48,843 nucleotides of DNA, from assembly GCA_012519315.1 (NCBI GenBank), contig JAAYQM010000013.1, positions 1 to 48,843 on the forward strand, written 5' to 3'. This document shows positions 33,634 to 37,979 of this stretch, piece after piece. A program made the position numbers and the translations under genes. How positions within the stretch are numbered: the first letter of the stretch is position 1; each line of letters begins with the position of its first letter. The stretch comes from Clostridiales bacterium (GTDB lineage Bacteria > Bacillota > Clostridia > Oscillospirales > CAG-272). Under the pieces are notes generated by a model, which was not told where the DNA came from, made no database searches, and saw only the letters and a list, made by a program, of their open reading frames with translations.

Positions 33634-33867
33634 TTGAGTTGTTTGACAGGAGATTTTGTTTTATTAACTGTTCTTGCCCTGTTAAGTATTATTATGTACA
33701 CGATACCTACTGTTATTGCTTGCGAGGGTGATCATCCTAATAGAAAAAAGATTGTTTTAATCAATCTTTTTTTCGGATGGACAGGTATCGGATGGTTTTT
33801 CGCATTATTCTGGTCCTTAAAATCAAGAGAGGGCAATTACTTTTTTTTCGATCATACTCATAAGTAG
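33634..33867 (+). CDS. Superinfection-immunity-like small membrane protein
   Basis: YTIPTVIACEGDHPNRKKIVLINLFFGWTGIGWFFALFWSL resembles the Imm_superinfect family; start codon uncertain. Confidence 0.75.
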   Translation: MSCLTGDFVLLTVLALLSIIMYTIPTVIACEGDHPNRKKIVLINLFFGWTGIGWFFALFWSLKSREGNYFFFDHTHK

Positions 33868-33870
33868 CAA

Positions 33871-33960
33871 AAAAGCAAACATTAATAGGCGGACTGCCCG
33901 AAAGGCTAGGCCGCAAAGCTCAGGAGTCTAACCAGTTTTCGTATGACTGGCCGGCTGCAT
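33871..33960 (+). ncRNA. Cyclic di-GMP-I (GEMM) riboswitch-like aptamer
   Basis: AGGCGGACTGCCCGAAAGGCTAGGCCGCAAAGCTCAGGAGTCTAACC core (GAAA tetraloop, GCAAAGC, CTAA), then hairpin CCAGT-N9-ACTGG. Confidence 0.65.
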
Positions 33961-33986
33961 ACTCATGTTGAGTTGCAGCCGGTTTT
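33951..33986 (+). terminator. Intrinsic terminator overlapping the 3' side of the GEMM-like aptamer (expression platform)
   Basis: CCGGCTGCA-T-ACTCA-TGT-TGAGT-TGCAGCCGG-TTTT. Confidence 0.8.
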
Positions 33987-34019
33987 ACTATAAAGCGTAT
34001 CAAAGCAAAAAAGGATAGA

Positions 34020-34062
34020 AAAAATAACCTTTGCTTCCTTTGATGGGGTAAAGGTTATTTTT
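34020..34062. terminator. Bidirectional terminator between riboswitch region and pheT
   Basis: AAAAATAACCTTT...AAAGGTTATTTTT. Confidence 0.8.
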
Positions 34063-34079
34063 CGATAATTCTTTAGCAT

Positions 34080-36470
34080 TTATGAGCGAATATTGATATT
34101 AAGCTCACGCTGTAGTGCGGCAAGAATTTTTGCCGTCGCCTTATCGGCCTCCTCGTCGGTGAGGGTGCGTTCAGGGGAGCGAAGGCTGATTCTGAAGGCG
34201 ACGCTCTTCTTGCCCTCGGCGACCTGTTCGCCGCGATAGATGTCAAAGAGCCTGACATCCTCCAGCAGCTTAACGCCCGCACTTCTGATCACTCTTTCGA
34301 TGGCGCCCACTTCAAGGGTCTCGTCACAGACAAAGGAGAAGTCGCGAGCGGATGCAGGGTATTTTGCAAGAGGGGTGTATTGCGGCTCAGGACCGATTAA
34401 GCTGTAGAGCAGCTCAAAATCAAGGACGGCAGCATAAACAGGAAGGTCAAAATCATAGTTTTGAGCCACAAGGGGGTGGATCTCTCCAAGAATTCCGATT
34501 TCTTTACCGCAAGGGGAGGTGATTATAGCGCACTTTCCGGGATGGAACGCGGGATTTTCGGTATATGCCGAGTATTGGCATTTCCCGATGCGGGATTTTG
34601 TGATGATGTTCTCGCACATGCCCTTCAGGGTGTAGAAATCGCCGTTTTGATAAAAGCCTATGACGATAGTTTTGCGCTCGTGTGGAAGCTCGTCCTCACC
34701 CTGCGGTATATAGACGGTGGCAATTTCATAGAGAGCAGCACGGGGATTTGAGTGATTGTTGTTGCGCGCCAGGGTATCCAGCATGGAGGGGAGAGCGGTC
34801 GTTCGCATAATGCTGGTGTCCTCCCCCAAAGGATTTAAAAGGGTGATTGAACGGCGGGCGGCATCCTCCTCAGGTATGCGGATACGGTCATAAAACTTCG
34901 GAGAGATGAAGGAAAAGGTGCAAATCTCATCAAGTCCCATACCGCACAAAAGATCGTGCATTGACTGTTCATATGCCTGCTTCGGCGTGAGTTTCCCCTG
35001 GGTAATATTTGCTCTGAAGTGTGCGGATTCGATATTATTGTAGCCATAGATGCGGGCGATTTCCTCGGCAAGATCGGCCATACCCTCCACATCGCCACGC
35101 CAGGAGGGAACGGTTACCGTGTCCCTTGCGACGGTAAAGCCAAGAGAGGTCAGCACCTTTGCCATATAGTCGGTTGAAAGGTCGGTGGCTAAAAGCCTAT
35201 TAATCTTCTCGACTTCAAACGGGAGTACACGGGCATCTCTTTTGCCGGGGTATATATCGGCAATTCCGGGCAGAACATCGCCGGCATCAAGCAAATTCAC
35301 CAGCTCACAGGCACGTTCCAGAGCGGGCAGGACATTTTCGGGATCAAGCCCCTTTTCAAAGCGGCTTGAGCTCTCGGTACGCATTCCCTGCTTCTTTGCG
35401 GTGACTCTGACCGAGGCGCCCAGGAAGTTGGCGCTTTCAAAAACAACGGTCTTTGTGCTGTCGGTGATTTCGCTGTTGGCGCCGCCCATAATGCCGGCAA
35501 GGGCTACCGCCTTGTTTTTATCGGCGATAACCAGCATATCTGAGGTAAGCTTATGGTCAACATCGTCAAGAGAACGGAAGTTTTCACCTTCCTTTGCGTT
35601 GCGCACGATAATGCTCGAGCCATCAAGGCAGGCATAATCAAAGGCATGCATCGGCTGACCGTACTCCAGCATGACATAGTTTGTAATGTCCACAATATTG
35701 TTGATGGGGCGAACGCCGGCGGCACGCAGCCGCATTCTCATCCAAAGAGGGGAGGGCTTTATGCGGACATTCTTTACCACACGGGCGGCATAACGGGGAC
35801 ATAGGTCAGGGGCGTCGATTTGAACCGAGAGATAATTTTCGATGCGATCTCCATCGTTAAGAACGGTTGGCTTTGGTTTGGGAATGTTAAAGGGGCGGTT
35901 AAAGGATGCAGAGGTCTCTCTTGCAAGCCCGATAACCGAGAGACAGTCGGGGCGGTTTGAGGTTATCTCAAATTCCACGGTGGTATCCCTCAGCATCAAG
36001 GCGTCCCGAATATCGGTGCCCGGCGCATGGGAATCATCAAGAATGAGGATTCCGTCTTCATCGGCAAAAGGCATATCATGGGTATCAAGTCCGAGCTCTG
36101 AGATGGAGCAAAGCATGCCAAAGGACAGCTCCCCTCTCAGCTTGCCGGCTTTAATAGTTTGCCCGGTGGGTAGCTTCGCACCGTTAAGGGCAACGGGAAC
36201 ATAGGCGCCAGCAAAAACATTGCCTGCCCCGGTAATGATTTGAACGGGAGCCTCCGTTCCGACATCCACAGAGCAGATGGTTAGCTTATCGGCGTTGGGA
36301 TGCTTTTGAAGTGTGGTGATTTTGCCGACAACCACGTTATTGATATTATCGCCGCGGCATTCGTAGCCCTCCACCTTTGAGCCGGTGTTGGTCATGCGGT
36401 CACAATAGTCTTTGATTGAAATATCGTCAATGTTTATATAATCTTGTAGCCAATTAAGTGATAGTTTCAT
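34080..36470 (-). CDS. pheT: Phenylalanine--tRNA ligase beta subunit
   Basis: MKLSLNWLQDYI, VGKITTLQKHPNADKLTICSVDVG, RPDCLSVIGLARE, C-terminal anticodon-binding domain. Confidence 0.97.
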   Translation of the reverse strand: MKLSLNWLQDYINIDDISIKDYCDRMTNTGSKVEGYECRGDNINNVVVGKITTLQKHPNADKLTICSVDVGTEAPVQIITGAGNVFAGAYVPVALNGAKLPTGQTIKAGKLRGELSFGMLCSISELGLDTHDMPFADEDGILILDDSHAPGTDIRDALMLRDTTVEFEITSNRPDCLSVIGLARETSASFNRPFNIPKPKPTVLNDGDRIENYLSVQIDAPDLCPRYAARVVKNVRIKPSPLWMRMRLRAAGVRPINNIVDITNYVMLEYGQPMHAFDYACLDGSSIIVRNAKEGENFRSLDDVDHKLTSDMLVIADKNKAVALAGIMGGANSEITDSTKTVVFESANFLGASVRVTAKKQGMRTESSSRFEKGLDPENVLPALERACELVNLLDAGDVLPGIADIYPGKRDARVLPFEVEKINRLLATDLSTDYMAKVLTSLGFTVARDTVTVPSWRGDVEGMADLAEEIARIYGYNNIESAHFRANITQGKLTPKQAYEQSMHDLLCGMGLDEICTFSFISPKFYDRIRIPEEDAARRSITLLNPLGEDTSIMRTTALPSMLDTLARNNNHSNPRAALYEIATVYIPQGEDELPHERKTIVIGFYQNGDFYTLKGMCENIITKSRIGKCQYSAYTENPAFHPGKCAIITSPCGKEIGILGEIHPLVAQNYDFDLPVYAAVLDFELLYSLIGPEPQYTPLAKYPASARDFSFVCDETLEVGAIERVIRSAGVKLLEDVRLFDIYRGEQVAEGKKSVAFRISLRSPERTLTDEEADKATAKILAALQRELNINIRS

Positions 36471-36539: not shown

Positions 36540-37553
36540 TCAGAACTGCGACAAAAAGCGAACATCATTTTCGTAGAGCAGGCGCATATCGTCAATGTTG
36601 TATTTGAACATGACGACGCGTTCAATTCCGAGTCCAAAGGCAAATCCGCTATAGACATCAGGATCAATGTTGCAGGTGCGGAGCACGTTCGGATGAACCA
36701 TACCGGCGCCTAAAATTTCGATATAGCCCTCGCCCTTGCAGAGGCGGCAGCCCTTTCCGTCACAGTTAAAGCAGGAGACATCTACCTCGGCCGACGGCTC
36801 TGTAAAGGGAAAATAATGAGGACGGAATCGTATTTTTGTGTTTCCGCCAAACATATTTTTGGCGAAAAGCTCAAGCATTCCTTTCAGGTCAGCGAAAGAG
36901 ATGTTTTTATCCACAACCAGTCCCTCCAGCTGATGGAAGAGGGGGGAATGGGTAGCATCAACGGCGTCTGAGCGGTAGACCCGTCCGGGGGAAATGATGC
37001 GGATTGGAGGCCTTTGCTTTTCCATGACCCGGACCTGAACCGGGGAGGTCTGGGAGCGAAGCAGAATCTTGTCATTGATATAAAAGGTATCCTGCGTATC
37101 CCGTGCCGGGTGGTTTTCCGGGATGTTTAGGGCTTCGAAGTTGTAGTAGCCGTACTCCACTTCGGGACCTTCTGCGATCTCAAACCCCATGCCGATAAAA
37201 ATTTGCTCCAGCTTCCGTTGGATTATCGAGAGGGGATGGCGCCTTCCCACCGGGATTTCGGCACCGGGAACGGTGACGTCAATGCGCTCTTTATTGAGCT
37301 TTTCCAACAGCTTTGCATAGCGCAGCTCTTCCTGTTTTTCAGCAATCGCCGATTCAATGTATTGGCGTATCTCGTTGGCAAGCTGACCGATTATAGGACG
37401 CTCCTCGGCAGAAATTTGCCCCATGCCGCGTAAAACAGCGGTAAGGGCGCCTTTTTTGCCCAGATATTTAATTCGGACAGCCTCAATATCGACATTGGCA
37501 TCGGACAGGCTCTCGGCCGCCTCCGCCTTGATTTGTAGAAGCGTATCTTTCAT
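36540..37553 (-). CDS. pheS: Phenylalanine--tRNA ligase alpha subunit
   Basis: [64 protein letters not shown]. Confidence 0.97.
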
Positions 37554-37616: not shown

Positions 37617-37850
37617 CAAAAAAAGACCCGTCCATGGAACATGGGACGAGTCGTTAGAACCCGCGGTACCACCCGCATTTCGGCAAAAATGCCGACACTT
37701 TCATATGCTGTAACGGGCATCCCCGTGACCGACTACTGATCCTTCACCGGTCATGCTCCAAAGTGAAATGCTCCTCCGTGCCGCCGGTCGCTCGCAGCCA
37801 AAGGCGACCTTCTCTGTATGCGGTGATACGGTATCGCTGACTTTATCATA
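37617..37850 (-). ncRNA. T-box leader upstream of pheST
   Basis: Minus strand GGGTGGTACCGCGGGTT (T-box) followed by GACTCGTCC...GGACGGGTCTTTTTTT; UUC in GCATTTCACTTTGGAGC fits a Phe specifier. Confidence 0.92.
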
Positions 37851-37979
37851 GCATTTTTAAAATGTAAAAATGGGTTATTATCGATGCAATATTCTATATT
37901 ATACAGCATTAGAATAAAAATTGCAAGTACAAATCAGGATTTTATAAAACCGAGGGCTTGCGACCGATCTTTATAAATA

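Follow-up and report, generated by a model that had tools for sequence, protein, structure and literature searches.

The element described here is compared with the c-di-GMP-I riboswitches (RF01051), of which orphan and convergent examples are already known. The merRNA of Bdellovibrio bacteriovorus is an orphan c-di-GMP-I RNA of 445 nt that is massively expressed (PMC3627812). A computational survey counted 152 antisense against 2,554 sense c-di-GMP riboswitches and also reported riboswitches facing transposases or pseudogenes through chance insertion (PMC9943018). Antisense-acting riboswitches, such as the SAM riboswitch of ubiG-mccBA and the cobalamin riboswitch of pocR, point towards a convergent gene no more than 500 nt away. 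Within the c-di-GMP-I aptamer, A23 and C44 (Vc2 numbering) are highly conserved bases in a published survey, and it is the C44-G83 contact that makes P2 and P3 pack in parallel (PMC3764141).

The element lies in a stretch of DNA of 48,843 nt, referred to here as the window, from a 1.99-Mb draft genome of 128 contigs. It shares with the c-di-GMP-I riboswitches a covariance-model match, the ligand-contact bases, a GNRA tetraloop with its receptor and an overlapping terminator, but differs from them in having neither a downstream gene nor a promoter, in the replacement of A23, A24 and A43, and in a weak P3. On balance it is probably an orphaned and decaying c-di-GMP-I riboswitch, whose promoter and target gene were lost by local rearrangement. 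Read in this way, the locus offers a checkable picture of riboswitch death, with promoter and target gone, the junction drifting and a hairpin left as a terminator, and it is a reminder that a covariance match may exceed the cut-off without proving that the switch works.

The first-pass annotation had called the element a GEMM-I riboswitch, and an RF01051 search (cmscan, window) bore this out with a match on the + strand at 33878-33962 that spans the full model (1-87) and reaches 39.2 bits, the gathering score being 35. The E-value was 2.9e-4 in the window search and 2.8e-6 in the genome search, and since 14 control genomes gave no RF01051 match at E <= 0.001, the match is not a chance one. 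Judged from its sequence, the element is a member of RF01051 by descent, and a divergent one: it ranked last by score among the 39 RF01051 matches of a 60-genome survey, and it is the weakest of six matches above the cut-off in the source genome, the other five scoring 55.2-76.0 bits. The ligand-contact bases are retained (G20, 33888; A47, 33915; C92, 33958), as is the GAAA tetraloop of P2 at 33900-33903, and the receptor CUAA/UAUG, with which it would dock in P3, is present in the sequence. The 5' strand of P1, which had earlier escaped identification, amounts to two pairs at most (T33882-A33959 and A33881-T33960). The 3' end of the aptamer runs into a terminator, as had been proposed; this hairpin of 14 bp (9 bp, one bulged U and 5 bp; 33951-33982; -20.1 kcal/mol) is followed by UUUU to position 33986, and its 5' arm is formed by the 3' strand of aptamer P3 together with C92. 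The same terminator/aptamer architecture was found in the sibling copies of the source genome. Together, the retained G20, A47 and C92, the tetraloop, receptor and terminator, and the score above the cut-off leave room for a functional element.

Upstream of the element lies imm (33634-33867, +), an ORF for a small membrane protein of 77 aa which, as the first-pass annotation had it, ends with the stop codon at 33865-33867 and is a superinfection-immunity gene; its product matched PF14373 (Imm_superinfect) with 62.5 bits against a cut-off of 27.9. The start codon is TTG and is uncertain. The element had been placed in the 3' region of this gene, and it does adjoin the 3' end, lying outside the coding region. 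The GC content of imm is 33.8 %, compared with 45.5 % for the window, and the fact that it is AT-rich and was found in just 2 of 59 relatives suggests that it was acquired. A search of GTDB contigs with the imm protein gave a single distant match, in an alphaproteobacterial MAG (46 % identity). A phage or plasmid source for the imm-riboswitch block was considered and rejected, neither the phage nor the plasmid collection having given a match. The block was carried by none of 295 family genomes, among which only the aptamers of two genomes, G030 (71 %) and G110 (77 %), matched.

Downstream, the + strand holds no ORF of note before the convergent gene pheT (34080-36470, -, with its stop at 34080), which upholds the orphan status given earlier and leaves the element without a same-strand gene to control. 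The gene pheS (36540-37553, -) accompanies pheT, and a T-box leader (108 bits) is located ahead of pheST at 37639-37858 (-). Between the element and pheT stands another hairpin, rich in A and T (34020-34063; -19.8 kcal/mol), also anticipated by the first-pass annotation; it is expected to be the terminator of pheT and, being bidirectional, would also halt + strand read-through ahead of that gene. The genes that follow pheT and tktC differ in every relative examined, so that the order tkt-imm-element-pheT appears to be specific to this lineage and a local rearrangement is plausible. A metagenome-assembled contig that wrongly joined the riboswitch to pheT, hiding the real target, would give the same picture, and both the draft state of the genome and a gene order unseen in relatives would agree with it. 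This is nevertheless very unlikely, as no near-identical repeat that could cause such a mis-join was found, and the absent promoter and the core changes described below are independent of the join.

Promoters were scored by one scheme for all copies, assuming sigma-70 sites, over 140 nt upstream and against 200 shuffles. No promoter-like site was found within 140 nt upstream of the window element, the best score being 6.3, which was equalled or exceeded by 99.5 % of shuffles. In four of the five siblings a near-consensus, TTGACA-16/17-TATAAT-like site stands 64-114 nt ahead of G20, with scores of 9.5-10.1 that none of the 200 shuffles equalled; the fifth (contig C52) has a good site, scoring 8.8, and the copy in genome G030 scored 9.5. 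A consensus scan gave a single weak + strand site (9/12) within imm, no more than the number expected by chance, and the promoter of imm itself is weak by consensus (7.3, matched or beaten by 72 % of shuffles). Without a promoter, the element could be transcribed only by read-through from upstream, forming the 3' end of that RNA. This bears on the proposal that the element is an antisense riboswitch controlling pheST by convergent transcription. The distance from the element's end (33986) to the pheT stop codon (34080) lies inside the 500-nt limit used for antisense riboswitches, and c-di-GMP riboswitches showed the strongest antisense tendency in the survey (PMC9943018). Unlike the ubiG-mccBA and pocR cases, however, the window element lacks its own promoter and shows no apparent metabolic link between its ligand and the opposing genes, the hairpin at 34020-34063 stands before the pheT stop codon, and pheST is already under a T-box leader; regulated antisense transcription into pheST, one of the options first raised, is thus highly improbable.

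The core was compared in a gapless alignment (over the conserved ends) of 34 aptamers from 16 genomes. Positions 23 and 24 are A in all 33 other aptamers and G in the window element, where the J1/2 strand (positions 23-25; 33891-33893, +) reads GGA in place of the AAA found in 33/33 relatives; position 43 is A (28) or G (5) in the others and C here, so that the J2/1 strand (positions 42-44; 33910-33912, +) reads GCC. The conserved internal loop of P2 (A23, A25, G42 and C44, with the C44-G83 contact) is thereby altered by A23G, A24G and A43C. In the predicted fold, G23 and G24 pair with C44 and C43, that is, 33910-33912 pairs with 33891-33892 in two G-C pairs that capture C44. On this folding model, the replacements leave a plain helix in place of the P1b/P2 internal loop, and the G-C pairing could tie up C44 and remove it from the C44-G83 contact. 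P3 is affected as well. In its nearest relatives P3 carries an apical stem of the CGA/UCG type. The window element lacks this stem; instead, alignment and fold prediction show CCAGT (33932-33936) pairing with ACTGG (33946-33950) in a hairpin at 33932-33950 (+) that breaks P3. This CCAGT-N9-ACTGG motif had been taken for part of the GEMM core, and it is better described as a competitor of P3. The penalty for imposing the canonical core was 9.5 kcal/mol in the window element, the highest of the 34 copies, although G057c, a presumably working copy which precedes a gene, comes close at 8.8 kcal/mol.

The paired G-C/G-C change at the junction could be compensatory, and the three substitutions jointly create two G-C pairs, as might be expected if the GGA/GCC junction were a deliberate change of ligand or affinity. 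The aptamer seems a most improbable candidate for such rebuilding: it is a single instance for which no homologues with a GGA/GCC junction were found, its ligand-contact bases are canonical, and it scored only 34.7 bits with the c-di-GMP-I-GGC variant model (RF03167), below the cut-off of 59. Among 399 genomes of the phylum, the pattern GGCGGA-N6-GNAA-N6-GCCGCAAAGC had a single occurrence, in the source genome itself, and it had none in viral contigs, where the canonical aptamer pattern was found in 60 stretches. Look-alikes of the GGCGRA pattern in viral contigs were dismissed as chance matches and not riboswitches, and looser versions of the pattern gave chance sequences only. The related proposal, that an aptamer with a rebuilt and fully paired P1b-P2 junction has kept its response to a cyclic dinucleotide and determines where the imm mRNA ahead of it ends, so acting on the preceding gene, is given little credence.

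Of the four options listed in the first-pass annotation, the best fit is a relic of a deleted target gene. A small RNA and regulated antisense transcription both suffer from the missing promoter, and 3'-UTR control of the immunity gene is only weakly possible, given an aptamer that has changed where 33 relatives show no variation. The lack of a promoter and a core altered at otherwise unvarying positions make a leftover the most likely reading. The ancestor would have been a c-di-GMP-I riboswitch whose promoter and target gene were lost in a local rearrangement, and the decaying aptamer would no longer adopt its normal fold. The hairpin at 33951-33986 would then form by default at any level of c-di-GMP and end the imm transcript or protect its 3' end, and any leak past 33986 would meet the bidirectional hairpin at 34020-34063 and stop short of pheT. 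That the hairpin is intact while the aptamer drifts is consistent with its retention as a terminator, although recent orphaning would look identical. A working conditional terminator in the 3' UTR would instead have c-di-GMP shift the 3' end of the imm mRNA from 33986 to about 34063, altering the stability of the mRNA or its overlap with the pheT 3' UTR. If the ligand were bound, this would be a rare riboswitch located after the gene that it affects. The aptamer/terminator overlap resembles that of the siblings, the ligand-contact bases are kept, and four GGDEF-domain matches in the source genome indicate that c-di-GMP is probably made there. Such control is still unlikely, because J1/2 and P3 are damaged, the promoter of imm is itself weak and the coding region would be intact with either 3' end.

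The probable relic differs in its surroundings from the five sibling copies of the source genome (about 55-76 bits), all of which sit ahead of same-strand genes. A tandem pair precedes a gene for a CBM2-domain protein, and the contig that carries this pair also has a single copy; one sibling precedes flgB-, flgC- and fliF-like genes (recognised by their sequence and not with a profile), and another a gene for a coiled-coil-like protein. The tandem GEMM-I elements (L045:1936-2321, G000:C56) each have a promoter and a terminator-like hairpin and stand before a CBM2-domain protein of secreted type. By simple alignment, the four aptamers most like the window copy are those of G110, G009, G023 and G030. 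The aptamers of G030 and G023 precede a VTC-domain gene (identified by profile in G030 and by resemblance in G023) followed by a membrane-protein gene, and no VTC-domain gene was found in the source genome. A lost VTC operon as the former target is accordingly a lead and not a proof.

The window copy is not the only one of the 34 surveyed without a same-strand target, there being at least three more. Two of these, G043c (L172; IS66) and G039b (L063; DDE_Tnp_1), face transposase genes and were probably orphaned by insertion. The third, G043a, is convergent to a gene for a DHH/DHHA2/CBS (pyrophosphatase-like) protein. This copy (L050/L171; G043:C1:58090-58174, -) has an intact aptamer of 78.7 bits with a terminator-like hairpin and a TTGCAA-N17-TATAAT-like promoter, and no same-strand gene. 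It has the features to be expected of a working orphan, which the window copy does not, and is far more promising as an orphan or antisense riboswitch. The window element shares with merRNA the character of a c-di-GMP-I element with no conserved ORF downstream (PMC3627812), which is what would suggest a c-di-GMP-binding small RNA or sponge of that kind; it differs from that massively expressed RNA in having no promoter-like site, and with its damaged core and the promoter-bearing G043 orphan as a better example, that role is hardly to be expected.

A further observation concerns the ligand-contact position G20, which is occupied by A in the aptamers of G030 (L057), G043b (L064) and G001b (L070), the first of which precedes the VTC-domain gene; this is the change known for cGAMP-sensing GEMM-I variants.
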